Origin: Myxococcus dinghuensis
GTDB lineage: Bacteria; Myxococcota; Myxococcia; Myxococcales; Myxococcaceae
Length of the DNA: 64,000 nt
Assembly: GCF_024198235.1 (NCBI RefSeq)
Contig: NZ_JAKCFB010000015.1
Span: forward strand, 124,001-188,000
Reading direction: 5' to 3'
Shown here piece by piece: positions 16,852 to 25,748 of the stretch (positions are counted from its first letter, which is position 1; every line of letters begins with the position of its first letter). Position numbers and translations under genes: made by a program. Below the pieces are notes generated by a model. It made no database searches, was not told the origin of the DNA, and was given only the letters and a program-made list of their open reading frames with translations.

Positions 16852-17589
16852 TCAGGCCGCGTCCGCGGCGGCCTGCTCCTCGTTCTCGTTGAAGGCCGAC
16901 AGGTAGCGCTCGAGGAACGTCTTGGTCTTGAGCTCCACCTGGCGCACGCGCTCGCGCGACACGCCCCAGCGCTGGCCCAGCTCCTCGAGGGTCAGCGGCT
17001 TGTCCTGCGTGAGCCGCTCCGTGAGGATGTCCCAGCCCAGGTCGCCAATGCGCTTGCGCACCTTGGTGAGCGCCTCCTGGATCTCCGTGTCCTGCTCGTT
17101 GGACAGGAAGACGTCCTGGGGGGACGGCCCCGAGTCCTCCAGGCGGTCGAGGAAGGTGGTCTCCCCCTCCTCGTCGATGGAGGCGTCCAGGGAGAAGTCC
17201 ACCATGCTCCCCCGCTCGGCCTCGCCCCCGCGCACCTGGCTGCGATTGTCCTTCAGGTAGCGGGTGATGTAGGCGCGGATCCACCACACCGCGTAGGTCG
17301 CGAAGCGTACGTTCTTCTTCGGATCGAAATGCTCGATCGCCTTCATCAAGCCGACGTTGCCCTCCTGGATGAGGTCATCCAGGCGCGCGCCGCGATTGGC
17401 GAACTTCTTCGCCACGGCGACAACGAAGGCCAGATTGGAGGTGGCGAGCGTCTGTCGCGCGGACTCGTCGCCCTTGCGAGCGCGGCGAGCCAGCTCATAT
17501 TCCTGCTCGCGCGTCAGTTGCTGGTGCCCCCCCAGGTGACGCAGGTATTGCGACAGGCCCTCCGCCGCAAACTTCGTCGAGTTGGCCAT
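16852..17589 (-). CDS. RNA polymerase sigma factor, RpoH-like (Myxococcus SigB/SigC/SigD/SigE group)
   Basis: 245 residues, alternative sigma-70 factor with regions 1.2, 2 and 4. Region 2: LATSNLAFVVAVAKKFANRG, LDDLIQEGNVGLMKAIEHFD, FATYAVWWIRAYITRYLKDN. Region 4: LTLEELGQRWGVSRERVRQVE. These are close to heat-shock-type RpoH and to the myxobacterial developmental/stress paralogues; which paralogue it is cannot be settled here. The start MANSTKFAAEGLS follows GGAGGACGGG; an upstream in-frame ATG 57 bp earlier is unlikely. The 219-bp upstream gap to 17808 has no clear promoter I can defend. Confidence 0.94.
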   Translation of the reverse strand: MANSTKFAAEGLSQYLRHLGGHQQLTREQEYELARRARKGDESARQTLATSNLAFVVAVAKKFANRGARLDDLIQEGNVGLMKAIEHFDPKKNVRFATYAVWWIRAYITRYLKDNRSQVRGGEAERGSMVDFSLDASIDEEGETTFLDRLEDSGPSPQDVFLSNEQDTEIQEALTKVRKRIGDLGWDILTERLTQDKPLTLEELGQRWGVSRERVRQVELKTKTFLERYLSAFNENEEQAAADAA

Positions 17590-17808
17590 GATTTCCCGTC
17601 CTCCGTTCGATGCCGGACGCGCTGTCCCCGCCGACCCCGCGTCCACCTGCTACTAGGACGCGCAACGAGCGAAAGGGTTTCGCATTCCATCGACAAACCC
17701 CGTTTCGTCTGTCGACCTTCGGGTCCTGGCGGGCTCGAAGCCAGCCCTTCCAGTGACTTGCAAGGTTGACGAGCCCGACGGACCTGTCGACCAGCGCGCA
17801 ACGGCTAC

Positions 17809-19242
17809 TCACTTAGAACGCACGAGCGGCGGGAAGATTTTCTCCGGATTGAGGAGCCCTGATGGGTCGAAGAAGTCCTTGAGCCGACGCTGCAGCGCGA
17901 TGAGCGGCTGCTGCTGCTCCAGCGCCAGATATTCCCGCTTCGCGAGGCCTACACCGTGCTCGCCTGTGATCGTTCCGCCCAACTCGACGGTCATCTCCAG
18001 CATGCGCCGGAGCGCTTCATCCACCAGGTGACGCTGATGCGGGCCCTCGTAGAGGATGTTGGCGTGCAGGTTGCCATCGCCCGCATGACCATAGGTGGCC
18101 ACGGTGAGCCCCAGCTCCGCGCCCATGGCCTTCAGCCGCTGGATGATTTCGGGAATTTTCGAACGCGGGACGACGATGTCCTCGGACACCTTGCGCGGCT
18201 TGAGTGCGCGCAGCGCGGGGGAGATGACCCGTCGCACGGCCCACAACTTCTCGCGCTGCGCGTCGTCCTGCGCGACGAGCGTCTGGGTGGCGCCCTGCTG
18301 TGTGCAGATGTCACCGAGGCGTGACAGCTCCTCCCAGAGCCCGTCCTCGCTGGCGCCGTCCACCTCGGCGATGACGGCCGCGCCCGCGCCCGCCGGGAAC
18401 GTGAAGCCCCGGCCGTCCACCGCGCGCAGGGCGACGTCGTCGATGAGCTCCAGGCAGCGCGGGAGGATGCCTCCCGCCAGCACGGCGGACACGCCCCGGG
18501 CGGCGTCCAGCACGGACGGAAACACGACCAGGGCCGTCATCACCTTCCTGGGCAGGGGGATGAGCTGGAGCGTGATTTCCGTCGCGACGCCGAGCGTCCC
18601 CTCCGAGCCCACGAACAAGCCCACCAGGTCGTAGCCGGCCACGCCCTTGATGGTGCGCCGGCCCACGCGAACGACCTCTCCGTCCGGAAGCACCCACTCC
18701 AGGCCGATGACGTAATCACGGGTGACGCCGTATTTGAGCGCGCGGGGCCCGCCCGCGTTCTCCGCCACGTTGCCGCCCAGCGTGCACGACTCCCAGGAGT
18801 TGGGGTCCGGGGGATAGAAGAGGCCCACGGCCTCCACGGCCCGCATCAGGTCGCCGGTGATGACGCCCGGCTCCACCACCGCCGTCAGGTCCTCCACGGA
18901 GATGGAGCGGATGCGGTTCATCCGCTCCAGGCTCACCGCCACCCCGCCGCGCAGGGGCAGCGAGCCGCCGCTCTTGCCCGTGCGCGCCCCGCAGGGCGTG
19001 AAGGGCACGCCCTGCTCGACACAGGCCTTGAAGACGGCGGAGACCTGCGCCGTGTCGCGCGGGAACACCACCACGTCGGGAGGGAACACGCCGCTGTCGG
19101 ACTCGTCCCGGGCGTAGCTCGCGAGCGTGTCCGCGTCGCGCCGCAACTGGTCCGGGGCGAGCACCGTCACCAGCCGCGCCCACAGCCGCTCGATGCGCTC
19201 GGGCTCCACGCGGATGGGCGCGGGCCCGGGCGTGGTGCTCAT
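17809..19242 (-). CDS. FAD-linked oxidase, GlcD/D-lactate dehydrogenase type
   Basis: 477 residues. The FAD-binding PCMH/VAO half shows PCGARTGKSGGSLPLRGG and TLGGNVAENAGGPRALKYG; the C-terminal FAD-oxidase half shows YGHAGDGNLHANIL and GEHGVGLAKREYL with the metal/substrate His residues. Relatives oxidise glycolate, D-lactate or D-2-hydroxy acids, handing electrons to a quinone or an FeS partner. A 4-base overlap (ATGA) with the FolE-like gene upstream, itself 28 bp after a Rieske ferredoxin gene, makes a three-gene operon. Whether the Rieske protein is its electron acceptor is speculation. Confidence 0.93.
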   Translation of the reverse strand: MSTTPGPAPIRVEPERIERLWARLVTVLAPDQLRRDADTLASYARDESDSGVFPPDVVVFPRDTAQVSAVFKACVEQGVPFTPCGARTGKSGGSLPLRGGVAVSLERMNRIRSISVEDLTAVVEPGVITGDLMRAVEAVGLFYPPDPNSWESCTLGGNVAENAGGPRALKYGVTRDYVIGLEWVLPDGEVVRVGRRTIKGVAGYDLVGLFVGSEGTLGVATEITLQLIPLPRKVMTALVVFPSVLDAARGVSAVLAGGILPRCLELIDDVALRAVDGRGFTFPAGAGAAVIAEVDGASEDGLWEELSRLGDICTQQGATQTLVAQDDAQREKLWAVRRVISPALRALKPRKVSEDIVVPRSKIPEIIQRLKAMGAELGLTVATYGHAGDGNLHANILYEGPHQRHLVDEALRRMLEMTVELGGTITGEHGVGLAKREYLALEQQQPLIALQRRLKDFFDPSGLLNPEKIFPPLVRSK

Positions 19243-19880
19243 CGCCGGGCCCCCAGGCGGGCCCACAGCTCCCGTCGCAGCGCCCCGTCCTTGCGCAGCT
19301 CACCCTCGTACGCCTCCGCGTGGGTGATGGCCTGGTGCTGCCTGGCGCCGCGCAGGCGCAGACACGACTGCTCCGCCTCGATGATGCACGCGGTGCCGGG
19401 GCTTCCCAGCACGCGGGCCAGGGCGCTCGCCACCTCGCGCGCCAGGTCCTCCTGGAGGATGAGCCGGTGCGCGAAGACGTCCACCAGCGCGGACAGCCGG
19501 CCGAAGCCCGCCATGCCCTTGCCCGGCACATAGGCGACGTGCGCCACGCCGGCCACGGGCAGCAGGTGGTGCGGGCACATCGAGTGGAAGCGCAGGTCCG
19601 TCACCACCACCAGCTCCCGGGACTCGCCTCGGGACGAGGAGGACGAGGTGAACGTCCCGCCGAGGGCTTCCTCCGGGGTGACGGCATAACCGTCGAGGAA
19701 CTCGCGGCACCACGCGTCCATCACGCGTTGAGGCGTGCCCCGCAGGTTCTCGTCGTCCAACGGGAGACCGGCGGCGCGCAGGAAGTCCTCCACCGCCCGG
19801 GTCATGGCGATGGGGTCCGGCACGCTGACGGGCGGCGGTGGCGGCGGGGCGCGACGGGAGCGGGGCTTGGAGGGGCTCAC
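19239..19880 (-). CDS. GTP cyclohydrolase I (FolE)-fold protein with altered active site
   Basis: 213 residues, T-fold of the FolE family. The zinc ligands are kept: Cys and His in FHSMCPHHLLPV (E. coli Cys110, His113) and Cys in EQSCLRLRG (Cys181). But the catalytic His two residues before the last Cys (E. coli His179, VHYC) is Gln, and the triphosphate-binding GLSK...R (Ser135, Lys136, Arg139) reads GFGRLSA. The Gln-Glu pair of LQED is retained. It may make something other than dihydroneopterin triphosphate or be inactive. GTG start behind GTAGGAG; a longer frame would overlap the Rieske gene. An unusual Pro-rich N-terminus (about 20 residues) precedes the fold. Confidence 0.85.
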   Translation of the reverse strand: MSPSKPRSRRAPPPPPPVSVPDPIAMTRAVEDFLRAAGLPLDDENLRGTPQRVMDAWCREFLDGYAVTPEEALGGTFTSSSSSRGESRELVVVTDLRFHSMCPHHLLPVAGVAHVAYVPGKGMAGFGRLSALVDVFAHRLILQEDLAREVASALARVLGSPGTACIIEAEQSCLRLRGARQHQAITHAEAYEGELRKDGALRRELWARLGARR

Positions 19881-19908
19881 GGGGCAGGGGCTCCTACGGA
19901 GAGACGGT

Positions 19909-20253
19909 TCAGCGGCCGGCGACCCTAGCCGATGCCGCGACGAGGATCTCCTCGCCACGCACACGGACGTCATGGATGCGAACCTGGACCCCTTCGCGCA
20001 GGGGGCAGCGCCCCGTGCGGACATCGAACGGCCAGGCATGCAGGGGGCAGTACAGCAGGTGCCCGTCCAGATCCCCCTCCGACAAGGGGCCACCCCGGTG
20101 GGGACAGGACTCCTCCAACGCGTGGAGTCGCCCCTCGACCTGGATCAACACCAGCCGGGTGCCGCCCACGTCCACGACGGCACGGCCGCGTGCGTCCAAC
20201 GCATCGAGCCGAGCCACCGGAATGAAACCGTCGTCCGGTTGTCCTTGTCCCAT
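19909..20253 (-). CDS. Rieske [2Fe-2S] ferredoxin-like protein
   Basis: 114 residues. Both cluster-binding motifs are intact: CPHRGG (Cys-x-His) and CPLHAWPF (Cys-x2-His), spaced as in small soluble Rieske proteins such as NirD or dioxygenase ferredoxins. There is no signal peptide, so it is cytoplasmic. It is the first gene of an operon with the FolE-like and GlcD-like proteins, suggesting electron supply to one of them. Divergent from the metal-uptake island, 150 bp away. Confidence 0.92.
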   Translation of the reverse strand: MGQGQPDDGFIPVARLDALDARGRAVVDVGGTRLVLIQVEGRLHALEESCPHRGGPLSEGDLDGHLLYCPLHAWPFDVRTGRCPLREGVQVRIHDVRVRGEEILVAASARVAGR

Positions 20254-22296: not shown

Positions 22297-23223
22297 ATGC
22301 GTCACCTCCACTTCGTCGCGGCGATGTGCGCCGCCCTCTGCCTCCTCGCCGCCGCTCCCGCGCGCGCGGCCGTCAATGTCGTCACCACCGTCCCGGACCT
22401 CGCCGCGCTCGCCAAGGCGGTGGGCGGCGAGTACGTCGACGTGCAGTCCATGGCCCTGGGAAGCCAGGACCCGCACCGCGTGGATGCCAAGCCCAGCCTC
22501 GCGCTCGCGCTCAACCGCGCGGACCTGCTCATCAGCGTGGGGTTGGACCTGGAGATCGGCTGGCTGCCCAACCTGCTCACCGGCTCGCGCAACCCGCGCA
22601 TCCAGATGGGCAGCCCGGGCTACCTCAACGCGTCGCAGTTCGTCCGCGTCCTGGAGATTCCCCCTGGAAAGGTGGACCGCAGCGAGGGCGACGTCCACCC
22701 GGGCGGCAACCCACACTACCTCTATGACCCGCGCCAGGGCGCGGCCGTGGCCCGGGGCATCGCGGAGCGACTGGCCCAGCTCGACGCGAAGCACGCGGCG
22801 GACTACCGCGCCAACGCCGCGAAGCTGACGGCGGAGATCGACAAGGCCCGCGAGGACTGGGAGAAGCGGCTCACGGGCCTGCGCGGCGCGCCCGTCATCG
22901 CGTTCCACAAGACGACGGCCTACCTGGCGGACTGGCTGGGCTTCGAGCCCATCGCCTTCCTCGAGCCCAAGCCGGGCATCCCGCCCAACCCGTCCCATGT
23001 CGCCGGCGTGCTCGTCCTCGCGCGGCAGCGCAAGGCGCGCATGGTGCTCATCGAGAGCTACTACAACGACCGCGAGGCGAAGATGCTCGCCAACATGATT
23101 CCGGCCCCGCTCGCCACGCTGCACGGGGGCACGGACTTCCGCGCGGGTGAGACGTACATCCAGCACATCAACGAAATGGTCGGCGCGCTCGAGAAGGGCC
23201 TCGCCGGCTCCAAGGGGGGGTGA
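22297..23223 (+). CDS. Metal ABC transporter substrate-binding protein (ZnuA/TroA family)
   Basis: 308 residues with signal peptide (MCAALCLLAAAPARA). Cluster A-I metal-binding fold: strand NVVTTVPDLAALAKAVGG, first ligand region SQDPHRVDAKPS, ADLLISVGLDLEIGWLP, second ligand NPHYLYDPRQG, third FHKTTAYLADWLGFEP and a Glu in VLIESYYND. Three His plus a carboxylate fits Zn(II) or Mn(II). The His-rich loop seen in many zinc-specific members is absent, so the metal cannot be fixed. It delivers the metal to the ATPase/permease encoded downstream. Confidence 0.93.
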   Translation: MRHLHFVAAMCAALCLLAAAPARAAVNVVTTVPDLAALAKAVGGEYVDVQSMALGSQDPHRVDAKPSLALALNRADLLISVGLDLEIGWLPNLLTGSRNPRIQMGSPGYLNASQFVRVLEIPPGKVDRSEGDVHPGGNPHYLYDPRQGAAVARGIAERLAQLDAKHAADYRANAAKLTAEIDKAREDWEKRLTGLRGAPVIAFHKTTAYLADWLGFEPIAFLEPKPGIPPNPSHVAGVLVLARQRKARMVLIESYYNDREAKMLANMIPAPLATLHGGTDFRAGETYIQHINEMVGALEKGLAGSKGG

Positions 23224-23226
23224 GTC

Positions 23227-24087
23227 ATGAAGACACGACTGCTGCTTCCCCTGATGTTGCTGTCCGGTTGCGCGCTGGACTCGGGTGAGGGCTTCGCCGT
23301 GCTGGAGCCCACCGTCCAGGCCCGTTATGCCCCCACCCAGGACCGGCAGACGGGCGACGGGTTCCAACGCCTCTCCTCCGACTTCCAGGTGCGGCTGGAC
23401 AACGCCGCGCTGGGCGTGTCCCACGTGGAGCTGCTCGGCGGCGCGGGCACCAGCGGCCCCACCACCTTCGACCCGGCCAACCCGCCTCCGGGCTACAGCC
23501 TGTGCCACAACGGCCACTGCCACCGCTCCGACGGCGCGCTCGTGGACTACGCGGACATCGAGGCGGAGCTGAATGGCGGCGGCGGCTCCGGTGCGTCGCT
23601 GGTCGCCGCGCTGCACGTCGACGGAGAGCTGGACCTGGTCTCCTCCGAGCCAGTGGCCGTGGAGTGCGAGCCCGACTGCGAGCTGCCCCGCACCACCCTC
23701 ACCCGCGGCGTCTGGGAGGTCACCACCGTGAAGCTGGAGGGGCAGGTCCGCGACGCCCGCGTCCCGGCCCGCATCCTCGCGCGGGCCTTCCGGCTGTCCC
23801 TCACGTCGACAGGTGGCGGCGGAGGACACGAAGAGGAGGCGTTGTTCACCGTGACGGGCGCGGTGGACGTGCCCTCGGACCGCGAGCACGAGCCCCGCGT
23901 CAAGCTGGCGCTGTCGCTCCCCGTCCCCTCCTCCATCTTCGACGCGGTGGACTGGTCCACCGTGGTCGTGGACGCGGACGGCGTGGCGGACCTGGGGGAC
24001 AGCCGCAACGAGGCGGCACGGAAGGGAGTGCTCGACGCGCTCGCGGACCTGACACCCCAGGCGGAGGTGCGACGTGAAAACCGATGA
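23227..24087 (+). CDS. Lipoprotein with CHNGHCH motif in the metal-uptake operon
   Basis: 286 residues; signal LLLPLMLLSGC gives a lipidated Cys15. The mature protein is predicted mostly beta. A cluster LCHNGHCHRSDG near residues 91-102 and a Cys pair in VECEPDCELPR are likely metal or disulphide sites, and a Gly/His/Glu stretch (TGGGGGHEEEA) follows. It starts 3 bp after the binding-protein stop and overlaps the ATPase gene by 14 bp, so it is an integral part of the operon. A periplasm-facing metal-handling role is inferred; the family is not known to me. Confidence 0.8.
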   Translation: MKTRLLLPLMLLSGCALDSGEGFAVLEPTVQARYAPTQDRQTGDGFQRLSSDFQVRLDNAALGVSHVELLGGAGTSGPTTFDPANPPPGYSLCHNGHCHRSDGALVDYADIEAELNGGGGSGASLVAALHVDGELDLVSSEPVAVECEPDCELPRTTLTRGVWEVTTVKLEGQVRDARVPARILARAFRLSLTSTGGGGGHEEEALFTVTGAVDVPSDREHEPRVKLALSLPVPSSIFDAVDWSTVVVDADGVADLGDSRNEAARKGVLDALADLTPQAEVRRENR

Positions 24088-24895
24088 GCCCGTTTCGAGC
24101 GGAGAGGCCCCCCACGAGGTCCCGCCCACCTTCACCCTGGGCGAGCCGCTGCTCACCTGCACCGGGCTGGTCATCGGGTACAACGACAAGGCCATGTTGC
24201 CGCCCATCGACATGGTCATCCGTCGCGGCCAGTTCATCGCGGTGGTGGGCCGCAACGGCTCCGGCAAGAGCACCTGGTTCAAGACGCTGCTGGGGATGAT
24301 CTCCCCGGTCTCCGGCAGCATCACCCGCAGCCACCCGGAGATGCGCAGCGCCTATGTGCCGCAGACGTCCGGCATCGACTCGCTGCTGCCGCTGCGCGCC
24401 CGCGAGCTGACGGCCTGGGGACGGCTGCGGGGGTGGAGCTTCCTGTGGCCGTTCGCGAAGAAGGTGGATCGCGACGCGGTGGAGGGCGCGCTGGAGACGG
24501 CGGGCGCGAAGGCCATCGCCGCTCGGCCGTACCGCGAGTTGTCCGAGGGCCAGAAGCAGCGCACGCTCCTGGCCCGGCTCATCGCCACCGAGGCGGACCT
24601 GGTGCTGCTCGACGAGCCCACCGCCGCGATGGACGCGGTGGCCGAGCGCGAGACGATGCAGCGGTTGTGCTCGCTCGCGCGACAGCGGGGCCTGGGCGTG
24701 GTGGTGGTGTGCCACGACCTGGAGGTCGCCGCCGAACACGCGGACGTGCTGCTCTTCGTGGACCGGGAGACCTCCGCGTTCGTCGTGGGCGACGCGCGCA
24801 CCGTGTTCTGTCATCCCGCCTTCCGCCGCCAATACGGCGACGAGTACTGCCACCGCGCCCCCGAGGGTCCTCATCGTGGAAACGACGCTCGCTGA
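24074..24895 (+). CDS. Metal ABC transporter ATP-binding protein (ZnuC-like)
   Basis: 273 residues. Walker A VVGRNGSGKSTW, Q-loop region YVPQTSG, ABC signature ELSEGQKQRTLL, Walker B LVLLDEPTAAMD and the switch His in VVVCHDLEV are all present. It powers import of the ion bound by the periplasmic protein. The GTG start lies inside the end of the lipoprotein gene with GGAGG five bases before; the stop overlaps the permease gene by 20 bp. The C-terminus contains extra Cys/His residues (FCHPAFRRQYGDEYCH) that are unusual in this family. Confidence 0.93.
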   Translation: MKTDEPVSSGEAPHEVPPTFTLGEPLLTCTGLVIGYNDKAMLPPIDMVIRRGQFIAVVGRNGSGKSTWFKTLLGMISPVSGSITRSHPEMRSAYVPQTSGIDSLLPLRARELTAWGRLRGWSFLWPFAKKVDRDAVEGALETAGAKAIAARPYRELSEGQKQRTLLARLIATEADLVLLDEPTAAMDAVAERETMQRLCSLARQRGLGVVVVCHDLEVAAEHADVLLFVDRETSAFVVGDARTVFCHPAFRRQYGDEYCHRAPEGPHRGNDAR

Positions 24896-25748
24896 ACCAA
24901 CCCAGTGGCAACAGTTCGTCGCGGGCTTCGAGCTGTTCCGGGACCCGCTGCTGTGCGCGCTGCTGGCCGGTGGCGTGCTCGGCTTCCTGAGCGTCTACGT
25001 GGTGCTGCGGCGCATGGTGTTCGTCAGCGCCGCGGTGGCCCAGTCCGCGGGCCTGGGCGTCGCGGTGGCCTTCTATGCGGGCATCCACCTGGGCTTCGAG
25101 GTGGAGCCTGTGGTGGGCGCCACGGCGCTCGCGCTGGTCGCGACGATGCTGCTGATGATGGACCCCAGCCGGTTGAGGCTCACGCGGGAGAGCCTGCTCG
25201 GCCTGGCCTATGCGCTGTCGGGCGGCGCGGCGGTGCTCGTCGGAGATCGCATCGCGCAGGAGTCCCACGACATCCAGGGCATCCTCTTCGGCACCGCCGT
25301 GCTCGTCACCCCCGAGCAGCTCCGCACGGTGGCCATCGCCAGCGTCGTGGTGATGCTCATCCATCTGTGGTGGTACCGGGGCATCACCTTCGCCAGCTTC
25401 GACCGCATCGGTGCGCTGGTGCAGGGCCTGCCCGTGCGACTGCTGGACGGCGTGCTGATGGTGTCCATCGGCGTCATGGTGGGCGTGTGCGCCCGGGCGC
25501 TGGGCGCGTTGCCGGTGTTCGCCTTCTCGACGCTGTCGGCCATCGCCGCGCTGATGCTCGACCTGCGGCTGCCGTGGACGTTCCTCGTCGCCACCCTGGC
25601 GGGCATCATCTCCGGCGTGGGCGGCTACATGTTCGCCTACTTCTTCGACTTCCCCGTGGGTGGGTCGCAGACGGTGCTGGCGGCGGCGCTGGTGGGCGTG
25701 GGCATGGCGATTCGCTTCCTCATCCAACTCATCCAGCGCGCGCGCTGA
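24876..25748 (+). CDS. Metal ABC transporter permease (ZnuB/TroC family)
   Basis: 290 residues, eight or so membrane helices (for example PLLCALLAGGVLGFLSVYVVLRRMVFVSAA over the first two, and TFLVATLAGIISGVGGYMFAY). The motif RRMVFVSAAVAQSAGLGVA is the family's hallmark near the cytoplasmic coupling region (normally RR.VFVGDALSHAALPG). The GTG start overlaps the ATPase gene. It completes the importer; with the barrel and binding protein it could move a metal ion from outside the cell to the cytoplasm. Confidence 0.93.
   Translation: METTLAEPTQWQQFVAGFELFRDPLLCALLAGGVLGFLSVYVVLRRMVFVSAAVAQSAGLGVAVAFYAGIHLGFEVEPVVGATALALVATMLLMMDPSRLRLTRESLLGLAYALSGGAAVLVGDRIAQESHDIQGILFGTAVLVTPEQLRTVAIASVVVMLIHLWWYRGITFASFDRIGALVQGLPVRLLDGVLMVSIGVMVGVCARALGALPVFAFSTLSAIAALMLDLRLPWTFLVATLAGIISGVGGYMFAYFFDFPVGGSQTVLAAALVGVGMAIRFLIQLIQRAR

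Follow-up and report, generated by a model that had tools for sequence, protein, structure and literature searches.

A conserved FolE-like protein without the catalytic histidine is a candidate diverged GTP cyclohydrolase I in Myxococcota

The window, that is, the whole 64,000-nucleotide stretch of Myxococcus dinghuensis DNA analyzed here, encodes on its minus strand a FolE-fold protein (positions 19239 to 19880) with proline and glutamine at the positions of Glu111 and His179 of Escherichia coli FolE. By residue comparison and phylogeny, this variant is a conserved form of FolE without His179 that is widespread in the phylum and distinct from canonical FolE. It is probably a divergent GTP cyclohydrolase I whose active site has been rebuilt and which feeds the synthesis of folate and queuosine. 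As a zinc-dependent enzyme of the tunnelling fold, it would open the guanine ring and re-form it to yield 7,8-dihydroneopterin triphosphate or a closely related compound, the common precursor from which FolB and FolK lead to folate and QueD, QueC, and QueF to queuosine. In favor of this reading, no GTP cyclohydrolase I candidate other than the variant was found in most of the classified genomes that keep the downstream genes; against it count the missed TIGR00063 cut-off, the acidic position 68, the product reported for His179 mutants of the E. coli enzyme, the occurrence of the variant beside canonical FolE or FolE2 in certain genomes, and the presence of FolK with neither FolE nor FolE2 elsewhere. 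If most Myxococcota do obtain their dihydroneopterin triphosphate from the variant, either a differently constructed site can do without His179 or the chemistry starts in another way, and the lack of a match to the standard FolE model need not mean that the function is missing. No paper on the Pro111/Gln179 variant was retrieved by title or abstract beginning among the open-licence literature.

The gene lies in a three-gene operon with a Rieske protein and a GlcD-like oxidase, as a preliminary description of this DNA had proposed; the span given there (19239 to 20253) covers FolE and the Rieske gene. The first gene of the operon (19909 to 20253, minus strand) encodes a soluble Rieske-type ferredoxin-like protein (PF00355, E value of 7e-17), whose best match among solved chains is a dioxygenase ferredoxin (E value of 1.6e-10). 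The start of FolE, picked by eye, is a GTG at 19880 located 3' of a GGAG sequence, and the conserved domain begins at a methionine at 19805. The ATG of the GlcD-like gene (17809 to 19242, minus strand) overlaps the FolE stop by 4 bases (ATGA). Its product is an FAD oxidase of the D-2-hydroxyacid dehydrogenase family, with matches to FAD-oxidase_C (PF02913, E value of 9e-62) and FAD_binding_4 (PF01565, E value of 8.1e-41). By sequence, it most resembles glycolate oxidase and lactate dehydrogenases, and its best PDB chain is the glycolate oxidase 9qgz (E value of 1e-98); with the TIGR00387 model for glcD, it scores 417.8 bits, below the cut-off of 567.9.

The assignment of the variant to the FolE fold is supported by the Pfam family PF01227 (E value of 1.2e-47; 162.1 bits versus a gathering score of 27) and by the AlphaFold2 model of the monomer (pLDDT of 93.7 and pTM of 0.89), whose closest solved fold is the GTP cyclohydrolase I 1wm9 (E value of 1.2e-18 and TM score of 0.88). 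The folE equivalog model TIGR00063 gives 126.8 bits for the window protein, against a cut-off of 181.6; three further variants (L009, L060, and L065) score between 117.7 and 158.6 bits, and the canonical L002, L003, and E. coli FolE are above the cut-off. With His179 absent and the TIGR00063 score too low, the protein is not filed as canonical FolE. It does pass the subfamily model NF006825 (PRK09347.1-2, NCBIfam “GTP cyclohydrolase I FolE”), with 178 versus 174 bits. This model does not define the variant, as the canonical L002 passes it (270.2 bits), whereas variant L060 (162 bits) and E. coli FolE (172.4 bits) fail. PF02649, which represents FolE2 (GTP cyclohydrolase IB), is absent from the Pfam matches of the window protein at an E value of 0.001; FolE2 is a different family, although its product is proposed to be the same as that of the variant. 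The variant is under purifying selection, with dN/dS values of 0.17 to 0.39 against seven sequences of the same family and 0.50 against L028, values by which a decaying gene was ruled out.

GTP cyclohydrolase I works as a decamer with an active site common to three subunits, and its His179 is regarded as catalytic. Gln151 and Glu152 are taken here to recognize guanine, and Arg65, Lys68, Ser135, Lys136, Arg139, and Arg185 presumably contact the triphosphate. The location of this active site between three subunits is also described in PMC6718149. Alignment of the window protein to E. coli FolE shows that the zinc ligands Cys110, His113, and Cys181 are kept, together with His112, Gln151, Glu152, Arg65, and Arg185, features shared with GTP cyclohydrolase I (EC 3.5.4.16) as represented by Thermus 1wm9, Mycobacterium tuberculosis 9p8z, and the E. 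coli enzyme. In contrast, Glu111 is replaced by proline within a Cys-Pro-His-His motif that corresponds to Cys110-Glu111-His112-His113 (19566 to 19577, minus strand), and a Gly-Arg-Leu-Ser-Ala stretch replaces Ser135-Lys136-Ile-Asn-Arg139 (19488 to 19502, minus strand), such that Ser135 becomes glycine, Lys136 arginine, and Arg139 alanine. Furthermore, Lys68 is replaced by aspartate, Leu134 of canonical FolE by phenylalanine, and His179 by glutamine, encoded by the CAG codon at 19368 to 19370 (minus strand). The same alignment bears out the preliminary description in its account of these residues: retained zinc ligands, glutamine for His179, and Gly-Arg...Ala for Ser-Lys...Arg.

The glutamine is no local oddity. 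PF01227 was found in 169 of the 195 Myxococcota genomes that make up the phylum sample, of which 144 were classified by residues and 25 were left unclassified; a second copy in G099 and a third copy in G108 fall outside the classification. The classified sequences comprise 126 Pro111/Gln179, 15 Pro111/His179, 1 Pro111/Met179 (in G104), and 10 Glu111/His179 sequences, the last group including E. coli FolE and two G108 frames. Position 179 in the Pro111 clade (n = 142, window included) is thus Gln in 126, His in 15, and Met in 1. The three zinc ligands are present in all 126 Pro111/Gln179 sequences, and of the guanine-site positions, Glu152 is kept throughout the clade (142/142) and Gln151 nearly so (134/142). 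Histidine at position 146 is a feature of the variant (137/142), whereas the seven canonical sequences kept for comparison (L006 and two L007 frames were left out) have arginine, glutamine, or lysine there.

The presumed phosphate site combines retention with replacement. Arg65 is found in 139 and Arg185 in 133 of the 142 clade sequences, and position 136 is arginine or lysine, mostly arginine, in 117. In contrast, position 68, which is basic in all seven canonical sequences, is aspartate or glutamate in 107, position 135 is glycine in 136, and position 139 is other than arginine in 112 (the counts of 107, 112, and 117 are sums over individual residues). Because the arginine at 136 stays positive and Arg65 and Arg185 remain, the phosphate grip that the preliminary description had considered lost is better described as remodeled, although position 68 has turned acidic. 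The changes at 68, 135, and 139 suggest that the substrate could be a guanine nucleotide of another phosphorylation state (GMP, GDP, or a modified form), with the PTPS partner adapted to it, an explanation that is rather unlikely in view of the basic residues conserved at 65, 136, and 185. In the diverged GTP cyclohydrolase I favored here, we infer that these three residues would hold the phosphates.

A tree of 111 rows, built without L007 and near-copies (more than 93% identical with the same residue 179), places the variant outside canonical FolE, as a clade of its own: a branch with support values of 100/99 separates 11 canonical from 100 variant rows. Within the variant side, histidine at position 179 takes three changes, one of them nested among relatives that carry glutamine (L062 and G031), which indicates that His179 and Gln179 can interchange. 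A genome scan, in which 80 loci were kept out of 189 confirmed, names Hyalangium, Archangium, Pyxidicoccus, Corallococcus, and Anaeromyxobacter among the relatives; one record of these 80 (L166) is titled Acidobacteria. FolE-like matches were also obtained in phage records (360) and plasmid records (241), and the 10 listed of each are less than 40% identical.

E. coli GTP cyclohydrolase I mutated at His179 reportedly forms a formylated pyrimidine, to go by the title of a 1999 paper by Bracher, and a natural enzyme with glutamine at this position must compensate or stop there. Compensation might come from water on the zinc, from His112, or from the clade-specific His146, any of which could take over the work of His179; the remodeling at Pro111 and Phe134 is, together with His146, a candidate for this role. 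An enzyme that opens the ring of GTP but goes no further than the formylated pyrimidine nucleotide, or releases it, leaving a separate enzyme to remove formate and complete the pterin, would agree with the behavior of those mutants and with the prevalence of glutamine in the clade. Two-step routes of this kind exist elsewhere, namely GCH III with ArfB and a route that includes the formamidase BrbF, as described in PMC9478397. Such an early stop is nevertheless improbable, as the two residues interchange within the clade and no formamidase gene was seen in the neighbor lists, in which a minority of the genes were family-scanned.

The gene content of the genomes argues for a role in pterin synthesis. 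The genome of the window (10.4 Mb, 100% complete) contains one PF01227 gene; profile searches found no second, canonical FolE in it and no match to FolE2 (PF02649). It does contain FolB, FolK, two PTPS genes, QueC, and QueF. One of the PTPS proteins, judged by eye, has the motif CxxxHGH and the other ExxHGH, the signatures of QueD and PTPS-III, respectively (PMC5041015). These two genes flank an SDR gene in a segment away from FolE (C103, L184:8760-10387), and FolB, which is likewise located away from FolE, has an overlapping SDR gene in front. Across the 195 genomes of the phylum, FolE2 was counted in 27, FolK in 184, FolB in 122, and PTPS in 177. The glutamine type is the only FolE type among the classified copies in 122 of the 144 classified genomes, one of which (G099) carries the second, unclassified copy. 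Of these 122, 119 are without FolE2; FolK is present in 117 of the 119, and 116 of those also have a PTPS/QueD homologue. QueF and QueC occur together in 41/41 genomes, including that of the window, and 33 of the 41 have the glutamine-type FolE only and no FolE2. Judging from these genes, folate synthesis in the variant-only genomes appears to be normal; for queuosine, salvage of preQ0 is a possible alternative.

The preliminary description had proposed that the protein acts on a new substrate, which would mean that it has left pterin synthesis and works together with the Rieske protein and the GlcD-like oxidase. The loss of catalytic residues and the frequent retention of the GlcD neighbor are compatible with this proposal, and so are the genomes that hold canonical FolE or FolE2 besides the variant. 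The proposal would, however, mean that 116 classified genomes that have FolK and PTPS are without a recognized source of dihydroneopterin triphosphate. The genome of the window itself has the variant as its only FolE beside FolK, FolB, PTPS, QueC, and QueF, and pterin enzymes (PTPS and FolB) are neighbors of the variant in relatives. The description had itself named the absence of canonical FolE elsewhere, combined with normal folate synthesis, as speaking against a new substrate, and this is largely what was found, with folate synthesis read from the genes. A departure from pterin synthesis is thus distinctly improbable.

The downstream genes are in themselves no proof of a FolE. Among 20 listed genomes of the phylum without PF01227 (six more are unlisted), 8 have FolE2 and 12 have neither. 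FolK is nevertheless present in 11 of these 12, six of the 11 being at least 90% complete, and its persistence there is a further point in favor of a new substrate for the variant. One such genome (G013, given as 100% complete) has FolK, FolB, and two PTPS genes, and neither FolE nor FolE2 was found in it. Some Myxococcota thus seem to use another, unrecognized source, or else the gene was missed by assembly or models. Replacement of FolE by a RibA-type enzyme is known from Chlamydia.

Six genomes (G020, G021, G033, G034, G040, and G108) have a canonical FolE besides the variant, and all 12 genomes of family f2 (L058 to L061 and relatives) carry FolE2 besides a Pro111/His179 variant; in the four f2 loci examined, a PTPS gene adjoins the variant. 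In genomes with canonical FolE or FolE2 as well, the variant may do something distinct. In G040 (L003), G034 (L004), and G033 (L005), a canonical FolK-FolE-FolB run lies beside the variant cluster, so that both types coexist.

The gene neighborhood in relatives is consistent with the pathway context of FolE. Gene calls around the variant were made from codon-position GC and are rough, with some genes merged or misframed. Of the 81 loci with room for it, 41 have a PTPS gene no more than 200 bases upstream of the variant, though no such gene was found in the loci from the genus of the window, and each of the families f2 to f9 contains one or more loci with the order PTPS-FolE-GlcD. The QueD motif C-x3-HGH, without glutamate after the cysteine, is present in 40 of the 42 PTPS frames that adjoin the variant, the other two frames being incomplete; two PTPS copies with CExxHGH (L099 and L100) came from the PTPS search and not from FolE loci. 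FolB is found upstream on the same strand in 14 genomes, at a gap of 0.8 to 1.6 kb, with the match in G154 being under the FolB cut-off. PTPS and FolB both belong to pterin metabolism, and this context is most simply explained if the variant supplies dihydroneopterin triphosphate.

Of all 82 variant loci, 70 have a GlcD homologue downstream on the same strand, at most 1 kb away (48/57 in an automatic count limited to loci with at least 1,500 bases of room). In 26 of the 70, the gap between FolE and GlcD is 455 to 878 bases, enough to accommodate one gene, which is an SDR gene in both loci tested (L028 and L072). A Rieske homologue is present within 1 kb upstream of the variant in 31 of 79 loci. 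Of the preliminary description, the FolE fold with a non-canonical catalytic site and the conserved operon with a GlcD-like gene, often joined by a Rieske gene, are supported, and the neighbors in relatives point to pterin metabolism; the new substrate is not supported. In the GTP cyclohydrolase I reading, the GlcD-like and Rieske proteins would probably take part in a connected redox or by-product reaction. More tentatively, the variant might be a GTP cyclohydrolase that lacks the catalytic histidine, has a reconstructed phosphate pocket, is coupled to the GlcD-like oxidase, and operates through different zinc-site chemistry, another phosphorylation state of the guanine nucleotide, or a two-step route with a formylated intermediate. 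Part of the conservation of neighbors is plain synteny, because a sigma factor and an acyl-CoA ligase, both identified by eye, are also kept nearby in several Myxococcaceae loci. In the window, the sigma factor, a sigma-70-type protein by eye, is encoded at 16852 to 17646 (minus strand), 3' of the GlcD-like gene.

Divergent from the FolE operon, the plus strand encodes at 22297 to 25745 a ZnuA-type zinc-binding protein (PF01297), an ABC ATPase, and an ABC-3 permease, which probably form a zinc-uptake set. As FolE is a zinc enzyme, the FolE operon and this putative uptake set might be under common zinc control.
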